From positions 1-20,154 of IMG/VR virus record IMGVR_UViG_3300009620_000092: a stretch of 20,154 bases of DNA. One strand, 5' to 3'. Of this stretch, positions 795 through 18,038 are shown piece by piece. Within the stretch, counting starts at the first letter, position 1; each line of letters starts with the position of its first letter. The notes beneath the pieces are model-generated. The model did not search any database, was not told the origin of the DNA, and worked only from the letters and a program-made list of their open reading frames with translations. The DNA is from a virus. Both the position numbers and the translations under genes were made by a program.

Positions 795-1829
795 ATGAAG
801 AAGGCGGTTCTTTTTGGCGTAACCGGACAAGACGGAAGCTACTTACTGGAGCTACTATTGGAGAAGAACTATAAGGTAGTTGGAGTAACTAGAAGAGTAA
901 GTACAGGTAATACCAGCAGAATTAGACATCTGCTAGACCACGAGGATTTTGAGATAGTAGAGGGCGATATTACTGACTATAGTAGTGTTCTTCGAATTGT
1001 CGAAGAGGCCTCGCCGGATGAGGTGTACAATTTGGCAGCAATGAGCCATGTTGGCACTTCATTTAATCAACCACTATTGTCAATCGAAGTTACGTGCAAG
1101 GGATGTTTAAACATTCTTGAAGTACTGAGAGAGCATAGTCCGAATACAAAGTTTTATCAGGCAAGCTCAAGCGAGATGTTTGGAGACTCCCTTGATGATG
1201 GGGGGTACGATTCGGAAGGGTTTTATCGCACGTATTCAAACCCCTATCAGAACGAGGAAACCAGATTCAATCCACAGTCTCCATATGCCGTGGCAAAGCT
1301 TGGAGCGCATCATCTTACTGGTTTGTATAGAAAGGCGTATGGCATATTTGGATGCTGTGGAATCCTGTTTAATCACGAAAGCGAACGACGCGGAGCAAGA
1401 TTCGTTACAAAGAAGATTACGAAGTATATCGCAGAACTAGACCATCATTTCAAAAATGGCGGTTCTAACAAGGATGCTCCAATTCTTGGTTTGGGCAATC
1501 TTGACGCCAAGCGGGATTGGGGACACGCAAGGGATTATGTAGAGGCTATGTGGCTCATGTTGCAACAAGACGAGCCGGATGATTATGTTGTTGCTACTGG
1601 AGAAACCTATACAGTAAGAGATTTCCTTATTGCTGCATTTAAAGAAATTGGTATTGATGACTTTACACCATTTGTTGTTCAAGACCCACGTTTCATGAGA
1701 CCTTCAGAAGTTCCATATCTTAGAGGAGAACCAAGTAAAGCTCGGGAAAAACTGGGATGGAATCATAAAATATCGTTTGAGGACTTGGTAAAAACCATGG
1801 TTAATTACGATATAGCGAGACTAGAATGA
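795..1829 (+). CDS. gmd: GDP-mannose 4,6-dehydratase
   Basis: A short-chain dehydrogenase/reductase of the extended type, 344 residues (the usual GMD length is about 340-375). It should convert GDP-D-mannose to GDP-4-keto-6-deoxy-D-mannose, the precursor of GDP-fucose, GDP-rhamnose and GDP-perosamine sugars, in the cytoplasm using bound NADP. Visible motifs are the nucleotide-binding GVTGQDG (8-14), VYNLAAMSHV (77-86), SSSEMFG with the catalytic Glu127 (124-130), the Tyr164-x3-Lys168 pair in SPYAVAK, LFNHESERRG (191-200) and RDWGHARDYVEAMW (240-253). Compared with bacterial GMD from memory, about a dozen extra residues lie between FG130 and NEETRF (roughly 131-151). An AAGGAG at 780-785 lies nine bases before the ATG. 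It ends in an ATGA overlap with the next gene. No partner epimerase/reductase (fcl, rmd) is in the window, so the final sugar is unknown. Phage-borne gmd genes are known from other phages. Confidence 0.95.
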   Translation: MKKAVLFGVTGQDGSYLLELLLEKNYKVVGVTRRVSTGNTSRIRHLLDHEDFEIVEGDITDYSSVLRIVEEASPDEVYNLAAMSHVGTSFNQPLLSIEVTCKGCLNILEVLREHSPNTKFYQASSSEMFGDSLDDGGYDSEGFYRTYSNPYQNEETRFNPQSPYAVAKLGAHHLTGLYRKAYGIFGCCGILFNHESERRGARFVTKKITKYIAELDHHFKNGGSNKDAPILGLGNLDAKRDWGHARDYVEAMWLMLQQDEPDDYVVATGETYTVRDFLIAAFKEIGIDDFTPFVVQDPRFMRPSEVPYLRGEPSKAREKLGWNHKISFEDLVKTMVNYDIARLE

Positions 1830-6149: not shown

Positions 6150-8330
6150 ATGGCCGATAGTCCTGTTCCAGATAAGAAACCAGACCCAGCATATATTACT
6201 TGGAGAGACGACGCAGAAAGGGCAAAGGCTTTTGACGGTATGTCTGATACCGTAGAGTCCTACGACGGGGTGATGAGGGCTACGTCTTCCCATCGTTCGT
6301 TTCTAGATATTGAAACGAATAGGTCTGTAAGAAGTGATTTTGTTAAAGATGACTATTATAGATTCAGACGACACGAAGCCCTGCCAAAGAAGCAAAAAGA
6401 CATCATGAGTATGTGTATGTCTGCTTACAATACGGTGGGAATTATCAAAAACATCATCGACCTGATGGGCGATTTTGCTTCTCAGGGAATCACCATCGTT
6501 CACCCAAATGCGCGTATAGAGAGGTTCTATAAGCGCTGGTTTGACAAGGTTGGTGGTCAAGAAAGGTCTGAGAGATTTCTCAATATGCTATATCGTTGTG
6601 GAAACGTTGTAGTAAAACGAAGAACCGCAAAGATAAACAAAAAGCTGGAAGAGACTTTTAAGAGAGCAGCCGCAGGTGATGTTGATATCATGACAGATAG
6701 GGTTGCTAAAAGGGATATTCCTTGGATATACGATTTTCTAAACCCGCTTTCTATTGAAGTAGTTGGGGATGAACTAGCCGTATTCGCTGGAAAACCTAAA
6801 TATGCTCTTAAGATTTCCAAGGGAACTTCAAATCTTATCAAGCGTGCTTTTGATAACAACCCAGACAAAGACTTAGTTGCCAATCTTCCATCCGACCTTC
6901 TCACGAAGGTGAATAAGGGGGAGCGACTTATCCCTCTAGACCAAGACAAGGTCCGCGCCTTCTTCTACAAGAAGGACGATTGGATGATGTGGGCTAATCC
7001 TATGATTTATGCTATTCTAGATGACATAGTCATGCTTGAGAAGATGAAGCTCGCTGACATGTCTGCTCTTGATGGTGCAATTTCTAACATCAGGCTTTGG
7101 AAGCTTGGCGATATTGAAAACAAGATTCTCCCCACCAAGGCAGCCATTAATAAACTTCGCAATATTTTAGCTAGTAATGTTGGCGGCGGAACAATGGACT
7201 TGGTTTGGGGTCCAGAGCTAAACTTCCAAGAATCAAACAGTCAGGTATTTAGATTCTTGGGTTCAGAAAAGTATGGACCAGTTTTATCCAGTATCTACGC
7301 TGGTCTTGGTATTCCACCTACACTTACCGGCTCATCTGGAAGTTCGGGCGGAAGCTTTACCAATAACTTTGTTTCTCTGAAAACTCTAATAGAGAGACTT
7401 GAGTATGGCAGAGGTATTTTGCTTTCGTTCTGGAAAAAGGAAATCGAAATAGTTCAAAAGGCCATGGGATTTAGGCTTCCTGCCAAAATTCGTTTTGACC
7501 AGATGGCGTTGTCCGATGAGGCGGCAGAAAAGAATCTGCTCATACAGCTTCTTGATAGGGATGTCATCAGCGCTGAAACCATTGTCGAAAGGTTTGGAGA
7601 AATTCCAGAAATCGAGAAGATTAGAATTAAGAGAGAGGCCAAGAACAGGCAAATGGAACTGCAACCACCAAAGGCAAGCCCATATCACAATCCACAGCAT
7701 AGACAAGACTTGGAAAAGATTGCTCTTAGCAAGGATGGTTTGACCCCCGGAGATGTTGGACTTCGCCCGGCAGACGATGTTGGCCCTCATCCACTTACTG
7801 TTCCGTCAGATAGGCCAAAGCAGGAAGAAATCCCACAGGAACCGGAGCAGCAGTCTCCCGGCCCCAACAATGACAAGGAGAGTTCTCCCACGGGTAGGCC
7901 AGAAGACGGCAGGCCAAAGTTTTCCAGAGACACTGAAAAGAGAAAGCAAAAGAGGGTTCTTCCCAGCGTTAAGGCGGATTCAGAGTTTGCAAGCCTGTTC
8001 CTATGGGTCAATGAATCGCAGAAAAAAATCTCGGAAATAGTTAATCCCGCCATACTTGCTCACTATAATAAGAGCAACTTACGAAGTCTAACAAAGAGCC
8101 AGCTAGAGAACTTGGAGTATATTAAATTCGGTGTTCTTTCTAACTTGGACCCGCATAATGAAGTTACTATAGAAGTTATAGAAAGCGTTTTGAGAAGAAA
8201 CCTGCCGTTGCAGAAATCTGTATCCGAGTCCTTCGACTCATTAATGGAGGGGCAGGATTCAGGATTATCAATAGATGACGCTAGAAATATCAGAATAATG
8301 TCTGTTGTTCTTGCCTGTAGTGACAGCTAA
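6150..8330 (+). CDS. portal protein
   Basis: The dodecameric ring at the capsid vertex through which DNA is packaged, identified by size (726 residues from this start), position directly after TerL, and sequence features. The N-terminal and central core (about 60-490) includes the mixed alpha/beta region with CGNVVVKRRTAK, then the clip/stem-like stretch FLGSEKYGPVLSSIYAGLGI and a Gly/Ser loop (LTGSSGSSGGSF, near 390), which is commonly seen in this class of portals. A Pro-, Glu- and Lys-rich, probably disordered segment covers about 510-610, and a helical tail (about 630-715) ends the protein. The frame is also open from a TTG at 6117, but ATG 6150 gives the natural start MADSPVPDKK. The only SD-like GGAG lies at 6130-6133, farther away than usual. 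The long disordered C-terminal extension is unusual for a portal and may contact scaffold or packaging proteins. Confidence 0.92.
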   Translation: MADSPVPDKKPDPAYITWRDDAERAKAFDGMSDTVESYDGVMRATSSHRSFLDIETNRSVRSDFVKDDYYRFRRHEALPKKQKDIMSMCMSAYNTVGIIKNIIDLMGDFASQGITIVHPNARIERFYKRWFDKVGGQERSERFLNMLYRCGNVVVKRRTAKINKKLEETFKRAAAGDVDIMTDRVAKRDIPWIYDFLNPLSIEVVGDELAVFAGKPKYALKISKGTSNLIKRAFDNNPDKDLVANLPSDLLTKVNKGERLIPLDQDKVRAFFYKKDDWMMWANPMIYAILDDIVMLEKMKLADMSALDGAISNIRLWKLGDIENKILPTKAAINKLRNILASNVGGGTMDLVWGPELNFQESNSQVFRFLGSEKYGPVLSSIYAGLGIPPTLTGSSGSSGGSFTNNFVSLKTLIERLEYGRGILLSFWKKEIEIVQKAMGFRLPAKIRFDQMALSDEAAEKNLLIQLLDRDVISAETIVERFGEIPEIEKIRIKREAKNRQMELQPPKASPYHNPQHRQDLEKIALSKDGLTPGDVGLRPADDVGPHPLTVPSDRPKQEEIPQEPEQQSPGPNNDKESSPTGRPEDGRPKFSRDTEKRKQKRVLPSVKADSEFASLFLWVNESQKKISEIVNPAILAHYNKSNLRSLTKSQLENLEYIKFGVLSNLDPHNEVTIEVIESVLRRNLPLQKSVSESFDSLMEGQDSGLSIDDARNIRIMSVVLACSDS

Positions 8331-8353
8331 TTTTTTGATTATCTTGCTTTTCT

Positions 8354-8363
8354 GGTGTATAAT
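8354..8363 (+). promoter_or_regulatory. GGTGTATAAT promoter-like motif, copy 2 (protease/capsid)
   Basis: A perfect copy in the 50-base gap between the portal gene and the protease-scaffold gene. Here a TTGATT at 8336-8341 sits 17 bases before TATAAT, so this copy alone also resembles a sigma-70 promoter with a -35 box. The start codon at 8381 is only about 17 bases downstream, so the leader is very short, with a GAGGT sequence as the likely ribosome site. Confidence 0.7.
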
Positions 8364-8380
8364 TATTTGAGGTAACCATT

Positions 8381-9877
8381 ATGATAAAAATATATTCGTC
8401 AGAAGCACAGGCTGGCCTTGGAGAACAAATCTCCAACAACACCATAGCTTATACCGTCCCTGTTTCTACGCATGTTCCAACAACACACGAGAAACAGATT
8501 GCTAAGCTATTTACTACTGATGCCATAGACGCTAAGAAGTCGGTTGAACAGTTCGACCTATACTATATAAATTCAGTATTGGTGTCCACTGGCTGGAATA
8601 AAAACGACGATGTATTTGATACAAAAGAAACTTGGACTGCTCGCAACACCCCCGAAGACAAGCAGTTCAATTTTATGCATAGTGAAGATGATATTATTGG
8701 ACATATAACTGGCAACTGGGTTCTTGATGCAGAAGGAAATACAATTCCTGACGACTCAGAAGAATTGCCAGAAAAGTTTGATATTATCACAAGCGCAGTA
8801 ATGTACAATAGTTGGTCATCCGCTGAAAAGCAGGAATGGATGTCCAGTTTAATTCAGGAAATTGAGGCAGGAGAATGGTTTGTCTCGATGGAGGCAATCT
8901 TTAATAATTTTGATTATGCTATAGTCACGCCAGAAGGTAAGCATAAGATTATTGCTAGGAAAGAAGAATCATCATTCTTAACAAAGCATCTTAGAATTTA
9001 TGGAGGGACAGGAGAGTATGAAGGACACAAATTAGGGCGTTTACTGAGAAACATAGCTTTTTCTGGAAAGGGGTTGGTGTCAAAACCTGCAAACCCAAGA
9101 AGTGTTATTTTTACGGGTAACAAACCATTTCAGAATTCTCAGGCTAGCGAAATCGAAACTTTTAATATAGATTCCGAAAAGGAGAAATCTAGCATGGCTG
9201 ATGAAAACATCACTTTGCTCCAGAAGCAAATCGACGAGCTAAAGTCAGAGCTAGTAGAAGCTAAGTCTCGTGAAGACAGTCTAACTCAGCAGCTTAATGA
9301 GCTTGATACTAAGTCCCTTAAGGACGAAGTTGACGTTCTAACCGCTGATGTTGCTGAAAAGACCGAGACTATTGCTAAACTAGAAGAGACTGTAGTAATA
9401 CTAGAAGTAGAGAAGAAGGAATCTACTGAGGCTTTGGCCGAGCGAGAAGAAACTCTTGCGAAGCTACAGGCCGAAATAGATACCGCAAACGCTGAGGCCC
9501 ATAAGGCCGCTCGTTTGGCTGCTCTTACTGAGGCTGGTCTTGATACTGAAGACGCCGAAGCCAAGCTTGAATCGTTTGCTGATGCAACCGATGAAATGTT
9601 TGAAGAGATTGTCAAGCTAGTTGCATCTACTCCAAAGGTAGAAGAAGAAGTTGCGGAAGAAGAGGCTCAGGCCGATGAAGCCGAAGCCGAAGAAGACGAA
9701 GAGACAGATGAGGCAGAGGCCTCCGCTGATGAAGACGTTCTTGAGGAAGCTGAAGAAGTCGCAGAAGCATCACTAACTGATGCTGGTGAGACTGATGAAG
9801 TTGCCGATGCTCGTACTTCTGCTAGCGATTGGCTTCGTTCAAACGTTTTGAAGTCAACAGCAAATCTAGAAGACTAA
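8381..9877 (+). CDS. prohead protease fused to capsid scaffold
   Basis: A 498-residue head-maturation protein. Residues about 1-245 form a phage prohead serine protease domain of the S78/U35-like type. NFMHSEDDIIGHI carries the likely catalytic His100, EWFVSMEAIF the likely Ser169, and FSGKGLVSKPANPRSV (228-242) is the conserved segment that ends this domain. Residues about 272-385 are a long coiled coil (QKQIDELKSELVEAKSR and similar heptads), and 420-475 is extremely Glu/Asp/Ala-rich, ending in DWLRSNVLKST. The coiled-coil plus acidic part is typical of a scaffold that guides capsid assembly and is then cut up by the protease. Such a single-gene fusion resembles lambda gpC/Nu3 in organisation. 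An in-frame internal start at 9194 is described separately. The gene sits in the canonical place between portal and major capsid genes. Confidence 0.9.
   Translation: MIKIYSSEAQAGLGEQISNNTIAYTVPVSTHVPTTHEKQIAKLFTTDAIDAKKSVEQFDLYYINSVLVSTGWNKNDDVFDTKETWTARNTPEDKQFNFMHSEDDIIGHITGNWVLDAEGNTIPDDSEELPEKFDIITSAVMYNSWSSAEKQEWMSSLIQEIEAGEWFVSMEAIFNNFDYAIVTPEGKHKIIARKEESSFLTKHLRIYGGTGEYEGHKLGRLLRNIAFSGKGLVSKPANPRSVIFTGNKPFQNSQASEIETFNIDSEKEKSSMADENITLLQKQIDELKSELVEAKSREDSLTQQLNELDTKSLKDEVDVLTADVAEKTETIAKLEETVVILEVEKKESTEALAEREETLAKLQAEIDTANAEAHKAARLAALTEAGLDTEDAEAKLESFADATDEMFEEIVKLVASTPKVEEEVAEEEAQADEAEAEEDEETDEAEASADEDVLEEAEEVAEASLTDAGETDEVADARTSASDWLRSNVLKSTANLED
9179..9184 (+). promoter_or_regulatory. 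internal Shine-Dalgarno for scaffold-only start
   Basis: A perfect AAGGAG lies nine bases before an in-frame ATG at 9194, inside the protease-scaffold gene. Spacing and strength equal or exceed those of the annotated gene starts around it. It falls exactly at the junction between the protease domain and the coiled-coil region, which is where an independent scaffold would begin. Confidence 0.75.
9194..9877 (+). CDS. nested scaffold protein (internal start, same frame)
   Basis: Translation from ATG 9194 would give a 227-residue protein (MADENITLLQK onward) identical to the C-terminal part of the protease-scaffold fusion, made of coiled coil and acidic tail without the protease domain. In lambda, the scaffold Nu3 is made from such an internal start inside the protease gene C, giving many free scaffold molecules for few protease fusions. 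The sequence shown here (in-frame ATG, strong AAGGAG with nine-base spacing, position at the domain boundary) supports the same arrangement. Whether the internal start is used cannot be proven from sequence. Confidence 0.7.
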   Translation: MADENITLLQKQIDELKSELVEAKSREDSLTQQLNELDTKSLKDEVDVLTADVAEKTETIAKLEETVVILEVEKKESTEALAEREETLAKLQAEIDTANAEAHKAARLAALTEAGLDTEDAEAKLESFADATDEMFEEIVKLVASTPKVEEEVAEEEAQADEAEAEEDEETDEAEASADEDVLEEAEEVAEASLTDAGETDEVADARTSASDWLRSNVLKSTANLED

Positions 9878-10428: not shown

Positions 10429-11436
10429 ATGAGTAATAAACTTACGAGACCAGACGATGCTTTTATCTCGCTGATTAAGCGTTCTGGTAGTCCCGATAAG
10501 GTTGAAGCTCTTTCCGCGCAGCGAGAAATCGCAAAGGCATTAGAAGAGCCTCTTCGGCAGGGTGTGCTCGTTGGCGATGTTGTAAGCAACATTTTCCAAG
10601 CTCTTACCATGGAACCCGGCACAACCACCGAGTTCCCCCTAGACCTACTCGCTCCCGGTGAGGAAGACGAGCATGTCGCATACACCAACCCCGGCCACGG
10701 TCGTATTCCCGAGCGTCAAGTCGAAGGCGATTATGTTATGGTTCCGACCTATAGCATTTCGTCCTCAATCGACTACTTGCTCCGCTACGCTCGTGACGCT
10801 CGCTGGGATGTTGTTGCACGCGCCGCTCAGGTTCTAGAGGCCGGTTTCGTTAAGAAGATTAACGATGACGGTTGGCATACCATTCTTTCCGCTGCTGTAG
10901 ACCGAAACATTTTGGTCTATGACAGTGACGCCGCAGCCGGTCAGTTCACGAAGAGACTTGTCTCTCTCATGAAGACCGTCATGCGTCGTAACGGTGGTGG
11001 CAACACAGCCTCCATTAATAGAGGTAGACTAACTGATATCTACCTAAGCCCAGAAGGTCTGGAAGATATTCGCAACTGGGGTGTGGACCAAGTTGATGAG
11101 GTCACACGCCGCGAAATCTATACCGCTGGTGAGGGTGGCATCACCCGAATCTTCGGTGTCAACCTCCACGACCTAGACGAGCTTGGTCAGGGTCAAGAGT
11201 ACCAAGAGTTCTTCGATAACGACCTCTCTGGTTCACTCGGTCCCTCTAGCGATGTCGAACTCGTCATCGGACTCGACCTGCAAAGCAACGATAGCTTCCT
11301 GATGCCCATGAAGCAACAGGTTCAGGTCTTTGAGGACGATACTCTTCATCGTCATCAGAAGGCCGGTATGTACGGATGGGCCGAGCTAGGCTTTGCGGTT
11401 CTCGATAACCGTAGAGTTCTCGCCGCATCCTTCTAA
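10429..11436 (+). CDS. major capsid protein
   Basis: A 335-residue protein directly after the putative decoration gene and directly before the strong terminator. Size, position and composition match the HK97-fold major capsid proteins that form the icosahedral shell, and no motif suggests an enzyme. Identifiable segments include an N-terminal helix (EALSAQREIAKALEEPLRQG), a long helical spine-like region (DYLLRYARDARWDVVARAAQ), a Gly-rich turn (MRRNGGGNTASINRG), YLSPEGLEDIRNWG and a C-terminal strand region (AELGFAVLDNRRVLAASF). The gene uses many C-ending codons (CTC, ACC, GAC, CGT/CGC) compared with its AT-richer neighbours, as expected for the most abundant virion protein. An AGGAG at 10415-10419 precedes the ATG by nine bases. 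No signal for proteolytic cleavage was assigned. Confidence 0.9.
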   Translation: MSNKLTRPDDAFISLIKRSGSPDKVEALSAQREIAKALEEPLRQGVLVGDVVSNIFQALTMEPGTTTEFPLDLLAPGEEDEHVAYTNPGHGRIPERQVEGDYVMVPTYSISSSIDYLLRYARDARWDVVARAAQVLEAGFVKKINDDGWHTILSAAVDRNILVYDSDAAAGQFTKRLVSLMKTVMRRNGGGNTASINRGRLTDIYLSPEGLEDIRNWGVDQVDEVTRREIYTAGEGGITRIFGVNLHDLDELGQGQEYQEFFDNDLSGSLGPSSDVELVIGLDLQSNDSFLMPMKQQVQVFEDDTLHRHQKAGMYGWAELGFAVLDNRRVLAASF

Positions 11437-11554: not shown

Positions 11555-14353
11555 ATGGCTCTAGCTATAGCAGACCGAGTAAAAGAAACAACTACCAGTA
11601 CAGGTACGGGCACAATTAATTTGGCCGGTGCTTCTACTGGTTTTCAGACATTTGTAGCGGGTATTGGCGGTGGAAACACCTGCTACTATGCTATTGAAGA
11701 CGCTGATGGCAGTGCTTGGGAAGTTGGCATCGGAACTGTAACAGATGCCTCCCCAGACACGTTGGCCAGAACAACGGTTCTTAAAAGCACAAATAGCAAT
11801 AACGCTTTAACTCTGACCAGTGGAACACACACGGTTTTTGCTACATACCCCTCAGACAAGGCGGTATTTAAGGATGAAAGCGGCATAGTTCTGGCTAGCG
11901 GAATACAAGTTGGCGCGTCGGGATTGTTGCTAGACAGCGTAACAATTACCACACTTCAAGCTGCGTCTGAATCTTTTGCCGACAATGACACAAGCTTAAT
12001 GACCTCTGCCTCCATACAAGACAAGATTGAGGATTATGGCTATACAACCAATACCGGAGATATAACAGCCGTAGTGGCTGGGTCGGGCATAAGCGGAGGG
12101 GCGACCTCTAGTTCCGCTACTGTAACCCTTGATTTAAATGGTCTGGCGAGTGGGGTAATAGCTGATAATGACTATTTGTTATTTGTAGACGTGAACGATA
12201 GCAACTCTGGCAAAAAGGAAAGCTTGGGTGATATAGCAGCGTTGTTCGCAGGAACAAACCTGACCGCTGCCAATTCTGTGATATCCGTAGATGACGCCTT
12301 TCTTAAGAACGACGCGAGCGATACAACAACCGGCGGGATTACTGCCGGTGGGTTTACTACTTCTGGCACATGGACAATGGATACTTCAGCGGGAGGTACT
12401 ACTGCAATTGACAGTATCAATATCACTAATGCCTTTACTGATAGTGATACAGTCATTATGTCTGCTGGAGCAATTAAAGAAAAGATTGAAGGCTACAGCT
12501 ATACAACAAATACTGGGGACATCACTGCTGTTGTTGCTGGCTCAGGAATTAGCGGAGGGGCAACTTCTGGTTCCGCTACCGTTACTTTAGACCTAAACGG
12601 TCTTGCGAGTGGGGTAGTGGCGGATAATGACTATCTTGTGTTTGTAGATGTGAATGATAGTAATTCAGGCAAAAAGGAAAACTTGGGTGATATAGCAGCC
12701 CTCTTTGCTGGAACAAACTTAACTGCTGCAAACTCTGTGATAGCTGTAGATGATGCCTTCCTCAAGAACGATGCTAACGATACAACAACAGGCACAGTTA
12801 CGGCAGCCGGGTTTACAACCACAGGACTTGCAACAGCATCCGGGGTAAAGGTTCAAAGAGATTCTGCTTCTGGTGTAATCATTAATTCGCAGATAGCTTT
12901 TGGCGATTATACGTTTATGTTGCCTTCTGGTAACGGAACTGATGGTCAGGTATTAACAACCGATAGTAAGAACACCTATTGGTCTACCTCAAGTGGTGGC
13001 GTCTCTGGAGATACTTTTGCTACAGACCTTAAGATAGGTAGAGATGCTCATAACTTAATAGATTTCACCACAGACGACGCCGTAACATTCAGGGTTGGAA
13101 ACGCTGATGAAATTACACTGGCGGCAAATGAGTTTTCTCCCACCACAAGTGATGGCATAGCGTTGGGAACCGGTAGTAAGATGTGGTCAGACTTATTCCT
13201 AGCGAATGGAGGAGTAGTTAACTTCAACAATGGTGACGCAACCCTAACGCATGAAAGCAACAAAATTGTAGCCAGTGGATGCGAGTTAGTTGTTAACCGT
13301 CCGGGTCGTAGTCTTGCTACATTCAGAAGAACCGATGATGGAGACGCTTCTATAGAGGTTGACGCATCTTTTCATGATGCCGACAACGACGCCCAGCTTA
13401 GAATGCTAACGGGAACCTCTGGTAAAGCTAGCATATTCTTTGGAGATACTGCTGACAATAATATAGGACTGATTTCTTATGACCATTCTGACAACAGCCT
13501 CACTATCAAAACGAACGCTACCGAAGCAGTATCAATTGACTCAGATGGCACATTAGCAACCAAAGGTATCATTAGAGAAGTGGCAACCAAAGTTGATACT
13601 AATTACACGATTGCTGCTGACGACCACATTATATTGGTTGACACCACGAATAGCGATAGAACGATTACCCTACCTTCAGCAGCCGCCGCCAACATCGGCC
13701 AAGAGTATACTGTCAAGAAAATAGATAGTGGTACTGGGGTTGTTAATATTGTTCCTAATACTACTGGTGGGTACGGTCCCGATGATATTGATGAATATGA
13801 TTTGAAATACGTGTTGTATGTACAACATGATTCAGTGACTTTCGTTTGTGGCCCCGGAGATGCTACAGCAGGTGATGAACAATGGTGGATTACAGCGGAA
13901 AGGAAACAAGCACATGCGGGCATTATGCAACAGCGAACGGTCTTGGCCTCCAGTGACCAAGGGCAAACCATTTCTAATGCGACTTTAACTGAGGTTACAT
14001 GGGACACCATTGAGAAAGAAATACCAGCCGGTCTAGCAGACCTGAGCACTGAACGATTTGACATAGCGAGGTCCGGTTTATATAATGTATGTGGGCATCT
14101 TTGGTATGACAACGGAATTGCTACTGGTGACCGCTGCGATTTACTCATATATAAAAACGGGACAATAGTTAAACAGGTCAAGACTATGGTTGCGCATTCA
14201 AGTAGTATGTACGTCACTGTCCAACTCAATACAGTAATGAATCTAGCGCCAAACGACTATATCGAGTTATGGACGTATCAAGATACCGGAAGTATTCCAC
14301 TTCATGTGCATCCTTATAGATATGCTACTTTTGCCATATCGGAGATATTATAA
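11555..14353 (+). CDS. tail fibre protein with duplicated repeat
   Basis: A 932-residue virion fibre protein that probably binds the host surface. The N-terminus (MALAIADRVKETT, then a Gly-rich segment, YYAIEDADGSAWEVGIGTV and HTVFATYPSDKAVF, to about residue 110) matches a module common at the start of phage fibre proteins, which probably attaches to the virion. Residues 127-271 and 286-424 are two copies of a long repeat. Further on come beta-rich shaft segments (DGIALGTGSKMWSDLFLANG near 530, IDSDGTLATKG near 665), the strand module YTIAADDHIILVDTTNSDR (683-701), and a C-terminal domain of about 140 residues (TLTEVTWDTIEKEIPAG to the end, with SGLYNVCGHLWYDNG) that resembles a C1q/TNF-like jelly roll. 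It shares the terminator-promoter junction upstream and overlaps the next gene by TAATG. Confidence 0.88.
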   Translation: MALAIADRVKETTTSTGTGTINLAGASTGFQTFVAGIGGGNTCYYAIEDADGSAWEVGIGTVTDASPDTLARTTVLKSTNSNNALTLTSGTHTVFATYPSDKAVFKDESGIVLASGIQVGASGLLLDSVTITTLQAASESFADNDTSLMTSASIQDKIEDYGYTTNTGDITAVVAGSGISGGATSSSATVTLDLNGLASGVIADNDYLLFVDVNDSNSGKKESLGDIAALFAGTNLTAANSVISVDDAFLKNDASDTTTGGITAGGFTTSGTWTMDTSAGGTTAIDSINITNAFTDSDTVIMSAGAIKEKIEGYSYTTNTGDITAVVAGSGISGGATSGSATVTLDLNGLASGVVADNDYLVFVDVNDSNSGKKENLGDIAALFAGTNLTAANSVIAVDDAFLKNDANDTTTGTVTAAGFTTTGLATASGVKVQRDSASGVIINSQIAFGDYTFMLPSGNGTDGQVLTTDSKNTYWSTSSGGVSGDTFATDLKIGRDAHNLIDFTTDDAVTFRVGNADEITLAANEFSPTTSDGIALGTGSKMWSDLFLANGGVVNFNNGDATLTHESNKIVASGCELVVNRPGRSLATFRRTDDGDASIEVDASFHDADNDAQLRMLTGTSGKASIFFGDTADNNIGLISYDHSDNSLTIKTNATEAVSIDSDGTLATKGIIREVATKVDTNYTIAADDHIILVDTTNSDRTITLPSAAAANIGQEYTVKKIDSGTGVVNIVPNTTGGYGPDDIDEYDLKYVLYVQHDSVTFVCGPGDATAGDEQWWITAERKQAHAGIMQQRTVLASSDQGQTISNATLTEVTWDTIEKEIPAGLADLSTERFDIARSGLYNVCGHLWYDNGIATGDRCDLLIYKNGTIVKQVKTMVAHSSSMYVTVQLNTVMNLAPNDYIELWTYQDTGSIPLHVHPYRYATFAISEIL
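11933..12366 (+). repeat. fibre repeat, copy 1
   Basis: It encodes fibre residues 127-271, beginning DSVTIT and ending GGFTTSG. The core from YTTNTGD (residue 163, base 12041) through the Asp-Thr-Thr-Thr-Gly stretch is a near copy of the second repeat, offset by 459 bases (153 codons). Compared over 98 codons by eye, it differs at six residues but at about 44 synonymous codons. Confidence 0.9.
12410..12828 (+). repeat. fibre repeat, copy 2
   Basis: It encodes fibre residues 286-424, beginning DSINIT, with its YTTNTGD core at residue 316 (base 12500). Preceding residues (FTDSDTVIMSAGAIKEKIEGYS) also align with copy 1 (FADNDTSLMTSASIQDKIEDYG), so the unit is longer than the nearly identical core. 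Confidence 0.9.
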
Positions 14354-14859
14354 TGGGAAGCGTTACAGTATTACCAGAACACAATATGAGAAAAATAGTA
14401 GAACTTTCTGGAGGAAGTCTTGACAAGTATAACTACTACTATAAAGGTGGTAAATTACATGTTAATGACGTGACACAGGAAGAACTGAACAACGGCTTAT
14501 CCACCTATATGGATAACTTGGACTTGTATTTGCTACAACCTCTAAGGGACAGTAGAAGTGAAAAGATGTCACGTCTAGCCAACGAGTATGTAGAACAATT
14601 CTATCCTTCTTATAGAAGGGAGCTTTTTATAGCCCTCGCTGAAGAAGCTAGAAATAATGGGTTAACGAACAGGACTGCATATATAGACCAATTGTTGACT
14701 TGGATTAAGACTGTAGTGTCAGCAGCCCTTCTTGCGGAAGACGCGATTGATTCTTGCGATACGGCAGAAGAAATAGAATCTATCAGCATTAATACAGAGG
14801 TATTCTCTGCTACAGACCCCGAGGTCACAATAAGAGGGGCAATGGCTATTGAAGATTAG
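14353..14859 (+). CDS. small unknown protein after the fibre gene (possible fibre chaperone)
   Basis: A 168-residue acidic protein. The first 45 residues look beta-prone (SVTVLPEHNMRKIVELSGG, YYYKGGKLHVNDV). The rest is helical (residues about 48-145, including RSEKMSRLANEYVEQF and RTAYIDQLLTWIKTVVSAA), followed by an acidic end. No known motif is recognised. It starts with TAATG overlap on the fibre stop, and small helical proteins directly after fibre genes are often fibre-assembly chaperones that are translated with their client. That role is inference from position and fold composition. A minor tail protein is an alternative. Confidence 0.75.
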   Translation: MGSVTVLPEHNMRKIVELSGGSLDKYNYYYKGGKLHVNDVTQEELNNGLSTYMDNLDLYLLQPLRDSRSEKMSRLANEYVEQFYPSYRRELFIALAEEARNNGLTNRTAYIDQLLTWIKTVVSAALLAEDAIDSCDTAEEIESISINTEVFSATDPEVTIRGAMAIED

Positions 14860-15421
14860 GCATTTTTATAAATTAATTCACGGTTGGTGTGATTTTGAAG
14901 ACATATATAAGGAGCAAGTTGAGGCAGCTAGTGACGGGTCTCATTTTGTAGAGGTGGGAACATATCAAGGACAAAGCGCTGCTTATATGGCAGTAGAGAT
15001 TGCTAATTCAAAAAAGAAAATACAGTTTGATTGCGTAGACAAATGGAAGTGGTGTTGGTCGAGTATAGAAAAAGCCGACGAAGATGATGACAGCAAGAAG
15101 ATTAAAGGAGGTGCGATTTATAACAATTTCCTCTTAAACACATTTCCAGTTAGAGATTATATAAATCCTATTAAAGAGTGGTCTGCCGATGCAGCACTTT
15201 TATACGAAGACAAGAGCGTAGATTTTGTTTTTATTGACGCAAGACATACATATGACATGGTTACACTGGATATTCAAAGTTGGTTACCTAAAGTAAAGAG
15301 TGGGGGCGTATTAGCTGGGCATGATTACTTTGATAAATTTCCAGAAGTCATTCAGGCGGTAGACGATTATTTTGGTGATTCAATATCTGTAAGAGGAAAC
15401 TCGTGGATACACCAGAACTAA
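14849..15421 (+). CDS. class I SAM-dependent methyltransferase (Methyltransf_24-like)
   Basis: A 190-residue methyltransferase. The SAM-binding motif I is VEVGTYQGQSA (34-44), the acidic ribose contact is probably Asp64 (DCVDKW), FIDARHTYD (128-136) is the family's motif IV region, and SGGVLAGHDY (151-160) closes the core. This type is often encoded with polysaccharide and sugar O-methylation genes, so the substrate may be a sugar, but the acceptor cannot be read. The start is a TTG at 14849, with a GAGGGG about ten bases upstream. No ATG occurs in frame until within the SAM-binding domain. It overlaps the previous gene by 11 bases and the following one by 19 bases, so it belongs to the fibre operon. 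Length is short but complete for a single-domain enzyme. Confidence 0.88.
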   Translation: MKIRHFYKLIHGWCDFEDIYKEQVEAASDGSHFVEVGTYQGQSAAYMAVEIANSKKKIQFDCVDKWKWCWSSIEKADEDDDSKKIKGGAIYNNFLLNTFPVRDYINPIKEWSADAALLYEDKSVDFVFIDARHTYDMVTLDIQSWLPKVKSGGVLAGHDYFDKFPEVIQAVDDYFGDSISVRGNSWIHQN

Positions 15422-17556
15422 AAAGCTACTTTGATTTTTTCCCAAAGGATATTTACTGTTGGATTAGGGGTGGATTAGTAAGAAGCCTGTTTGATAACAG
15501 TAAGACCAAAGACATAGATGTTTTTGTTTCAAACCGTCAAGACCAAGAAAGTATAGGTAAACATTTATTGAGTAGCGGTGCGACACATGTTGTTAATAGA
15601 GATATTTTAAACACCTTTAAAATCGATGGCCTTCAGGTAGATGTTTTTTGTGAAGAGGAAGGCTCTAGTCCGACAGATTGTGTAATCTGGTCTGACTATA
15701 CCATAGCGGCTGGCGCCATTGATTGTCACGGCAACATGTATTATCATCCAGATTTCATTAAGGATTGTATTGCAAAACGCTTACAGTACATAGGTAATGA
15801 TACAACCACCTCCCGAGCTTATAATAGACCAAACAGACTAAAAAGATTTCTCAATATAGGATACGAGATAGACAAAGAAAACATGTTAAAGCTTTTGGAT
15901 AGAATGTGTGTGGATAAAATCCCGTTACAAAAAGAAAGCTGGAAACCGACAATAAATAAATTTCACGTAGAAACAAAAACGACTTCTGGGTTTATATCAA
16001 AAGCTCAACCCAATGTAGAATCAACACCCAAACCTTTAGCTCCTTCGAGAGACTGCGTGTTAAAAGTAGCCATGCTAGACACAACCATTGCCATTAGCAC
16101 ATTTGACAGGCCAGACTGCCTTGATAAATTAATACAGTCAATAGTACAATATTATCCTAGCGTGCCAATCATAGTAGTTGACAACGGTATTGTTGAATAT
16201 AATACCCCAAAGTTGTTTAATAGCCATGTAAAAGTTTTCAGGATTAAAAAAGACGCCGGTTTGTCCGCGTGTCGCAATATGGCGATTGAACATGTAAAAA
16301 CTGAGTATGTTTTTATTATAGATGATGATGTTATTTTTACCGAGACAACAAAGATAGAAAATTTTCTGTCCGTTTTATACGAAGACCGACACATAGATAT
16401 AGTTGGAGGCTTGTTGTGGGATGAGGACAATAACAAATTACCAGCCACCCATAAAATTCCGGGTCAGGAAAATTTGATAGCTCAGTGTGACATAGACTTG
16501 GAAATAGTTGGAGACACCCTTTTTAAGTACCCAAGTCCAGATAATCTAAAAAAAACCAAGCACGGGATTAATTATAAATACGTAGATTATGTTATAAACT
16601 TCTTTCTCGCTAGGACAAAACTCTTCAAAGATATCCGGTGGGATAACAACTTAAAGCTCGCTGAGCATTTCGACTTTTTTCTGAGATTAAAGAACATGCC
16701 ATCCGGGTATGAACGCAGGGTTGCTTTTACGCCAGATGTAAAGGCTCACCACAAAAATAACAGCAGGGAAGAAGACCACTATCAGGAACATAGATTAAGA
16801 AGCAAGCACTTTTTTAAGATGTCAAAAGATAAGCATGGAATTAAGGATGTTGTTTTTTCGCATAGAGACTGGGCACATAGGACAATTAGGGGAGGACGAG
16901 ATAAGCAATCTTGGCAGTCTCCCATGTTTTTAGGAATAGGCACGGGGAGATGTGGAACAGCTTCATTAGCTAAGCTTATAGGGGGTTGTGACAACTGTGA
17001 AGTATTCCACGAGGCAAACTGGGAACATAAACAACACAAGCACAATACTCCCCTGCCTTGGGTTTTTGATGAGGACCAAGCGTCATTAAGAATAAAGAAC
17101 ATGAAAAAACGAGAATCTGTCCATTCCCTTTTTGGAGACGTGGCTTTCTACTATCTGAATTACTTGGACTTCTTCCTAGAAGAGTACCCCAACTTAAAAA
17201 TAGTCCACATATATAGAGACAAGGAAGAAGTAGTTAAGTCCTATCTCGCCAAAACATCCTCTGAATTTGGCCCAAAGGATTACGACAACTGGACCAAAGG
17301 CTCCAATATAGCAGACAAGATATGGACTCCCTGCTTTCCACAGTATGAAGTCGACAGCAAGCGAGAAGGGATATCTCGTTACTACGATGAGTATATAGCC
17401 AAAATAGAAAAATACAAAGACAGGATGTTTGAGATAGATGTCAAGAATCTGAACTCTTTTGAGTATCAGATTAAGCTTTTTGACTATCTGCAAATACCTT
17501 ACAGGAATAGAAAACACAGAGAAGTTATGGAAAACACCATCACAACAATAACTTGA
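15403..17556 (+). CDS. three-domain fusion: nucleotidyltransferase, GT2 glycosyltransferase, sulfotransferase
   Basis: A 717-residue fusion starting at a GTG (AGAGG about eight bases upstream) and overlapping the methyltransferase. Domain 1 (about 15-170) looks like the head domain of the polyA polymerase/CCA-adding nucleotidyltransferase superfamily: IRGGLVRSLF (21-30), KDIDVFV with Asp37/Asp39, and QVDVF with Asp80. Domain 2 (about 225-495) is a GT2 glycosyltransferase: TIAISTFDRP (228-237), IIVVDNG (256-262), the nucleotide-sugar metal site IDDDV with Asp307-309, and EHFDFFLRL (421-429) with the probable catalytic acid. Domain 3 (about 507-705) is a sulfotransferase: GIGTGRCGTASL (511-522) is the 5'-phosphosulfate loop that binds PAPS, and VHIYRDKEEVVKSY (601-614) is the 3'-phosphate site. 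All key motifs are present, so each domain may be active. The likely substrate is a glycan on the virion or host surface. Confidence 0.88.
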   Translation: MDTPELKSYFDFFPKDIYCWIRGGLVRSLFDNSKTKDIDVFVSNRQDQESIGKHLLSSGATHVVNRDILNTFKIDGLQVDVFCEEEGSSPTDCVIWSDYTIAAGAIDCHGNMYYHPDFIKDCIAKRLQYIGNDTTTSRAYNRPNRLKRFLNIGYEIDKENMLKLLDRMCVDKIPLQKESWKPTINKFHVETKTTSGFISKAQPNVESTPKPLAPSRDCVLKVAMLDTTIAISTFDRPDCLDKLIQSIVQYYPSVPIIVVDNGIVEYNTPKLFNSHVKVFRIKKDAGLSACRNMAIEHVKTEYVFIIDDDVIFTETTKIENFLSVLYEDRHIDIVGGLLWDEDNNKLPATHKIPGQENLIAQCDIDLEIVGDTLFKYPSPDNLKKTKHGINYKYVDYVINFFLARTKLFKDIRWDNNLKLAEHFDFFLRLKNMPSGYERRVAFTPDVKAHHKNNSREEDHYQEHRLRSKHFFKMSKDKHGIKDVVFSHRDWAHRTIRGGRDKQSWQSPMFLGIGTGRCGTASLAKLIGGCDNCEVFHEANWEHKQHKHNTPLPWVFDEDQASLRIKNMKKRESVHSLFGDVAFYYLNYLDFFLEEYPNLKIVHIYRDKEEVVKSYLAKTSSEFGPKDYDNWTKGSNIADKIWTPCFPQYEVDSKREGISRYYDEYIAKIEKYKDRMFEIDVKNLNSFEYQIKLFDYLQIPYRNRKHREVMENTITTIT

Positions 17557-17612: not shown

Positions 17613-18038
17613 ATGTCAGCAATGTCCGATTATTTAGAGGCCGCTCTAATTAACCACATTTTTAGAGGAACAGCGTTTTCACAACCGGCAGGTATTTACA
17701 TCGCTTTGACAAGTGGTGTACCCACAGACGCTACAACTGGTGGTACGCTAAACGAAATATCTGGCGCTGGTTATGCCAGAGCTTCTGGATGCGTTCCCAG
17801 CAGTAATGGCGACAGTAAGTGGGATGCTCCAACAACCGCTGGAGATACCGAGAACACAGCGGCCATCGAGTTTACCGCAGCCAGTGCGGATTGGGGATAT
17901 GTTTCTGGAGTGGCTATTGTAGACGCTCTAGCTGCCGGAAACATTCTTTTCCACGGCTCTCTCACAACGCCAAGAATTGTTCTCAGCGGCGATACTTTTA
18001 AGTTTAATGCCGGTGATATCGATATAACCCTAGCCTAA
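17613..18038 (+). CDS. small virion/tail-fibre-associated protein
   Basis: A 141-residue protein that I recognise as a type common in phage tail-fibre regions: an N-terminal helix with LEAALINHIFRGT, then PAGIYIALTSGVPTDA, a beta-rich middle with AIEFTAASADWGYVSGVAIVD and LFHGSLTTPRIVLSGD, ending FNAGDIDITLA. The role in the virion is not established; it is usually annotated as a tail fibre protein or as hypothetical. It is the first gene behind promoter-like motif 4, with a strong AAGGAG seven to eight bases before the ATG. It is followed after 12 bases by the next gene. Confidence 0.78.
   Translation: MSAMSDYLEAALINHIFRGTAFSQPAGIYIALTSGVPTDATTGGTLNEISGAGYARASGCVPSSNGDSKWDAPTTAGDTENTAAIEFTAASADWGYVSGVAIVDALAAGNILFHGSLTTPRIVLSGDTFKFNAGDIDITLA

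Follow-up and report, generated by a model that had tools for sequence, protein, structure and literature searches.

Phage-encoded sulfotransferases and the glycosylation of virions are both already known, as separate subjects (PMC10580990; PMC8290583; PMC11256854). The former have been reported as auxiliary metabolic genes in OM43-type phages and Synechococcus phage S-SRM01 (PMC10580990) as well as in glacier phages (PMC8290583), and their function has been called unclear (PMC10580990). As for glycosylation, the mycobacteriophages Che8 and Rita bear glycans on the capsid (Freeman et al., 2023, cited through PMC11256854). The sequence-only reading of the DNA considered here had held sulfation of fibres or of the host surface by a phage enzyme to be new; sulfotransferases in phages have already been published (PMC10580990; PMC8290583; PMC10829341). 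Our literature search, in which few subscription journals were covered, returned no report linking a sulfotransferase with virion glycosylation, nor any of sulfated virion glycans.

The gene described here joins a nucleotidyltransferase (NT), a GT2 glycosyltransferase and a PAPS-sulfotransferase (ST) in one protein. Our preferred reading, with a probability of about 0.5, is that the product is a soluble late enzyme that attaches a glycan to a protein of the virion, either fibre or capsid, and sulfates that glycan. With the auxiliary phage sulfotransferases it shares the same broad Pfam group, Sulfotransfer_3 (PMC10580990), and the presence in a phage genome, but those are single genes of unclear function, whereas here the sulfotransferase is fused, and elsewhere linked, to GT2 within structural blocks. 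The likeness to Che8 and Rita would be that phages with glycosyltransferase genes carry glycans on proteins of the virion, there the major capsid protein; the account of those phages includes no sulfotransferase, whereas in the present case GT2 and ST form one protein in a fibre block.

The three-domain gene and its surroundings

The window, that is the whole stretch of DNA analyzed, is a viral record 20154 bases long and belongs to a marine tailed phage of bacteria. Terminase, portal, head protein and Gp80 genes lie on one strand of this record, in keeping with the structural and fibre setting that the sequence-only reading had proposed. The features relevant to the argument are as follows:

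795..1829, + strand: GDP-mannose 4,6-dehydratase, a sugar-nucleotide gene upstream of the terminase
10429..11436, + strand: major head protein (E 2.8e-7)
11555..14353, + strand: tail-fibre-like protein, 932 aa (no family match; named by place and layout)
14353..14859, + strand: 168-aa protein behind the fibre, conserved in the same place in the relatives L093/L094 (52%)
14849..15421, + strand: Methyltransf_24 protein, 190 aa (E 1.1e-18), directly upstream of the fusion gene and overlapping it
15403..17556, + strand: NT-GT2-ST fusion gene, 717 aa, one uninterrupted frame
15454..15927, + strand: class II nucleotidyltransferase head, residues 18-175 (profiles, conserved residues, fold model)
16063..16872, + strand: GT2 (GT-A) glycosyltransferase, residues 221-490 (Pfam, conserved residues)
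16918..17544, + strand: PAPS-sulfotransferase domain, residues 506-714 (Pfam, profile, fold model)
17613..18038, + strand: Gp80 (podophage GP4 fiber I protein), downstream structural gene (E 1.6e-39)

The 932-aa protein is named a fibre because its N-terminal stretch of about 110 residues is conserved in relatives while the remainder varies, and because of its genomic place; it is the candidate substrate of the fusion enzyme, of which the Methyltransf_24 protein is a probable partner. Two further genes of the window encode an ornithine cyclodeaminase/mu-crystallin family protein (1826-2758; one relative, L064, with 64% identity) and a long Ala/Ser/Gly-rich repetitive protein that runs off the contig end (18911-20152).

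The fusion gene starts with a GTG codon, just upstream of which AGAGGA forms a plausible ribosome-binding site, and upstream of this GTG the frame stays open for 8 codons only. Its 5' end overlaps the 3' end of the methyltransferase gene by 19 bases. In base composition it is AT-richer than most structural genes of the window, which fits an exchangeable accessory gene. The protein contains no membrane-spanning stretch (maximum 19-residue Kyte-Doolittle mean, 1.09), consistent with an enzyme located in the cytoplasm, where it could reach PAPS.

Within the collections scanned, the three-domain fusion was seen once. A full-length search of viral contigs and the phage collection for the same domain order, a check that the sequence-only reading had put forward, gave zero other cases, and the fusion is absent from the visible DNA of 80 relatives fetched by their major head protein. 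This uniqueness, together with the finding that no second contig among the viral-contig matches spans the gene, is what would be expected of an assembly or sequencing artefact, in which a lost stop or a chimeric contig had fused two or three adjacent genes. Such an origin is nevertheless very improbable. The frame runs for 717 codons with no internal stop, with linkers between the domains, and the putative ribosome-binding site and the gene overlap also speak against it; moreover, the usual gene order elsewhere is ST-GT2, whereas the domain order of the fusion is GT2-ST, an arrangement that the simple loss of a stop would not yield.

Identity of the three domains

Profiles and fold models agree with the three domains, in one frame and in the order first read from the sequence, and their key motifs, described as intact in that reading, are kept and near-invariant in relatives, so that the catalytic residues are conserved in homologues rather than missing. 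Structure prediction was run for the NT and ST parts and both gave the expected folds.

As for the head, a PHROG nucleotidyltransferase matches residues 17-119 (E 2.4e-5), and a search with a profile of 80 such phage proteins gives E 3.2e-15 for residues 18-175, with none of 1000 shuffled sequences reported. Relatives of the head came from a profile built on distant phage homologues, two sequence patterns for this domain having found none. The AlphaFold2 model (pLDDT 82.2, pTM 0.73) matches CCA-adding enzymes (Foldseek E 8.8e-9, VIA Z 15.6), and G23, G24, D37, D39, D98, T100 and R145 are invariant in 42 aligned sequences. On this modelling, the predicted fold is that of class II CCA-adding enzymes and poly(A) polymerases; the nucleotidyltransferase of the earlier reading thus stands, while its suggested kinship with antibiotic modifiers does not. 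With the class II tRNA nucleotidyltransferases and poly(A) polymerases the head shares the fold, the GG...DxD motif and the later DxT motif, but the protein differs from them in leaving no room for body and tail tRNA-binding domains and in being fused to GT2 and ST. Those CCA-enzyme domains are not present, the head (to 175) and the GT2 domain (from 221) being separated by about 45 residues, mostly of low confidence in the model. By eye, the place of the EDxxR nucleotide-selection motif is occupied by N-R-P-N-R145, in which the R is kept and the E and D are not. A LicD identity of the head, prompted by the phage LicD-GT2 fusions L028, L030, L031 and L046, was rejected (hhalign probability 0.2% against phage LicD domains), and the likeness of the window protein to these fusions is one of layout only. 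The 80 phage members of the NT-head family (L151-L230) have open frames of 225-522 aa and are widespread stand-alone genes of the CCA/PAP-head type in large phages.

A head of this type could bind nucleic acid, and one could therefore think of an enzyme that glycosylates and sulfates the bases of phage DNA, or RNA. In PMC10829341, Iyer et al. (2013) are cited as the source on phage glycosyltransferase/sulfotransferase systems whose targets are nucleotides. We regard this as improbable, since no base hydroxylase, TET/JBP or base-modification kinase was found among the genes searched in the window (the record being a fragment), B4GALNT1 and not the DNA glucosyltransferases is the nearest match of the GT2 profile, and the paired loci described below sit in structural blocks.

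The identity of residues 221-490 as a GT2 domain is certain, and glycosyltransferase activity is predicted from it. Pfam Glycos_transf_2 matches residues 228-410 (E 1e-15), and the DxD-type metal motif (D307-D309) and E421-H422 are invariant in nine aligned sequences. Among solved structures the best sequence match is B4GALNT1 (beta-1,4-N-acetylgalactosaminyltransferase 1; E 4.6e-18, profile E 6.6e-23), which, although closest in sequence, is an animal enzyme whose donor and acceptor need not match those of the phage domain.

Residues 506-714 are predicted to adopt the PAPS-sulfotransferase fold and to have the corresponding activity. Pfam Sulfotransfer_4 matches residues 510-681 (E 2.7e-6; 27.8 bits against a cut-off of 22.8), Sulfotransfer_3 lies exactly at its cut-off, and a profile of 26 sequences matches solved sulfotransferases (5tiz, E 6.5e-6). 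The motif GIGTGRCGT occupies residues 511-519; G511, G513, G515, R516 and H536/E537 are invariant or nearly so, and R605 and S613 are invariant both in 15 and in 26 aligned sequences. We take GxGTGRCGT to be the 5'-phosphosulfate-binding loop and R605/S613 to be the 3'-phosphate-binding Arg and Ser. The AlphaFold2 model (pLDDT 88.7, pTM 0.86) has a tyrosylprotein sulfotransferase (TPST) as its best VIA match (Z 12.8, rmsd 3.3 over 167 residues), and in the VIA ranking tyrosylprotein and other sulfotransferases come first, from Z 12.8 down to about 12, and P-loop kinases follow at 11.8. In view of this proximity of kinases in fold, it is the sequence evidence on which the domain is called a sulfotransferase.

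The top structural matches by Foldseek and VIA are sulfotransferases that include TPST1, TPST2 and a tick TPST, and the tyrosylprotein sulfotransferases thus represent the closest solved fold, although the match is one of fold only, at 11-14% identity. They raise the alternative that the C-terminal domain sulfates a fibre or capsid polypeptide directly, while the GT2 domain acts separately. This is rather unlikely: besides the low identity, other sulfotransferases fall within one Z unit of the best match, and the repeated pairing with glycosyltransferases suggests a sugar as the acceptor. As in the earlier reading, we infer a sulfated glycan as the product, with direct protein sulfation as a possible alternative.

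Neighbouring GT2 and sulfotransferase genes in other phages

The link between GT2 and ST that had been drawn from the fusion alone is strengthened by their recurrence as adjacent genes in other phages. Viral ST loci were gathered through the sulfotransferase alone, regardless of GT2. Duplicates and truncated contigs were discarded, as were two loci in which no ST frame was scored, and 14 remained (L004, L006, L007, L008, L009, L010, L011, L013, L014, L015, L017, L018, L019 and L021). A GT2 relative is the next gene, at a gap of at most 220 bases, in eight of them (L007, L011, L013, L014, L015, L017, L018 and L019) and not in the other six; among 11 cellular ST loci, several of them from Planctomycetes and Melainabacteria-like MAGs, there is none. 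The difference between 8/14 and 0/11 gives a Fisher p of 0.003, to be read with the reservation that many paired loci belong to one capsid/portal lineage, so that the 14 do not count as independent events. In 160 viral loci retrieved for other purposes there was no GT2 match. A GT2 scan added further ST-GT2 neighbours (L027, L029, L036, L041 and L044/L045), and a later scan L236, with ST followed by GT2 (E 4e-6). Such recurrence argues that the coupling of sugar transfer and sulfation is not a one-off accident.

The same pair occurs in cultured phages. Both domains are matched by 184 records of Salinibacter ruber phages; in S. ruber phage 5_12, the one opened in full, the ST-GT2 pair (genes 10-11) lies directly behind the HK97-type capsid gene, and the IMG/VR loci L011, L013, L017, L018 and L019 have this same order behind the major head protein. 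The unfused pair, found in many cultured S. ruber phages, is annotated as "hypothetical protein" in the records listed. Other structural blocks combine the domains in other ways: a GT2-ST-GT2 group lies between the portal and the head protease/major head protein in L036, and in L041 this order follows the portal, while in L029 an ST gene lies two genes before a protein with three GT2 domains (811 aa, 6357-8789), directly upstream of the tail terminator, which it abuts.

Polyenzymes without a sulfotransferase were also observed, namely a GT2-LicD-cytidylyltransferase-GT2 protein of 855 aa (L028:1618-4182), followed by a gene that resembles the tail-terminator gene of L029, and a LicD-cytidylyltransferase-GT2 protein of 610 aa (L046:3-1832). 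These look like one-protein pathways for a phosphodiester-linked virion glycan. As the partners of GT2 vary among the L036, L029, L028 and L046 blocks, a GT2 core with changing domains emerges as a design that recurs in the structural blocks of phages, with the window protein as one variant. In another phage sulfotransferase (L004:8007-9611), the ST part is joined to some 330 residues of no assigned type.

The fibre slot in relatives and the proposed role of the enzyme

The phage belongs to a very abundant group, its major head protein having more than 570 relatives in viral contigs; in the phage collection, no relatives were found by portal or major head protein, and the terminase matches are distant. 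In those relatives in which the DNA behind the fibre can be seen, several carry cassettes at this place with sulfotransferases of several families, or sulfotransferase-like motifs, together with methyltransferases, glycosyltransferases or pyruvyl transferases:

L084:15178-19223: Sulfotransfer_3 (E 3e-10) with Methyltransf_24 and GT34
L069:18134-20635: Sulfotransfer_3 (E 5e-10) with Methyltransf_24
L125:15774-17841: Sulfotransfer_2 (E 5.5e-4, just below cut-off) with pyruvyl transferase
L077:17527-19481: putative sulfotransferase, short motif only, no family match and no solved-structure match
L112:14041-15325: putative sulfotransferase, short motif only, no family match

These sulfotransferases are unrelated to that of the window, and the presence of unlike families in the same slot argues for selection acting on sulfation near the fibre.

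The related cassettes also include enzymes of the LPS/EPS type (WavE, pyruvyl transferase), and a GDP-mannose 4,6-dehydratase is present in the window and in 30 of the 80 fetched relatives. Both observations would suit an enzyme that alters glycans of the host envelope to bring about superinfection exclusion or to escape decoy receptors, in the way of serotype-converting phages. Serotype-conversion genes, however, usually encode membrane proteins and are expressed from lysogens, which counts against this alternative, as the fusion protein lacks a membrane segment and its gene, repeatedly like those of the relatives, lies in the structural block by fibre and capsid genes. We consider modification of the host surface unlikely, albeit the least so of the alternatives weighed here.

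According to the preferred reading, modification of the virion, the enzyme would be made late in infection, in the cytoplasm, together with the structural proteins. The GT2 domain would take a sugar from a host nucleotide-sugar and attach it to a protein of the virion, which would thereby gain a short glycan; the adjacent tail fibre is the most likely acceptor, with the capsid as the other candidate. The C-terminal domain would then move sulfate from host PAPS onto the sugar added by GT2, and the methyltransferase encoded upstream may methylate the same glycan. For the CCA/PAP-type head, possible roles are the transfer of a nucleotide to the glycan or protein, RNA binding, and scaffolding. This proposal builds on a single frame that holds all three domains, with confident fold models for two, on active-site residues that are kept, on the genomic setting and on the recurrent GT2-ST pairing in structural blocks of phages; against it, the position beside structural genes is circumstantial and it is hard to see what the NT head would contribute to glycan synthesis.

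The pairing suggests that some phages may coat their own particles with sulfated sugars. A wider proposal, which we put forward tentatively and hold as less probable than the reading of the single enzyme, is that a class of tailed phages, including cultured S. ruber phages, devotes a GT2-ST module within the capsid/fibre operon to covering the virion in sulfated glycans, the window phage having condensed this module into a single polyenzyme whose NT domain would add a nucleotide to the product. The repeated pairing beside capsid and fibre genes provides a concrete hypothesis, namely sulfated sugars on virions; such glycans, if present, would matter for how particles adsorb, how stable they are in salt water and how hosts or grazers recognize them. 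The presence of the unfused pair in cultured S. ruber phages makes this hypothesis testable by mass spectrometry of virions. In another Salinibacter phage, a TnpB/Cas12f-like protein (L002:4588-6090; Cas12f1-like TNB domain, E 1.3e-20) is encoded upstream of the head genes.
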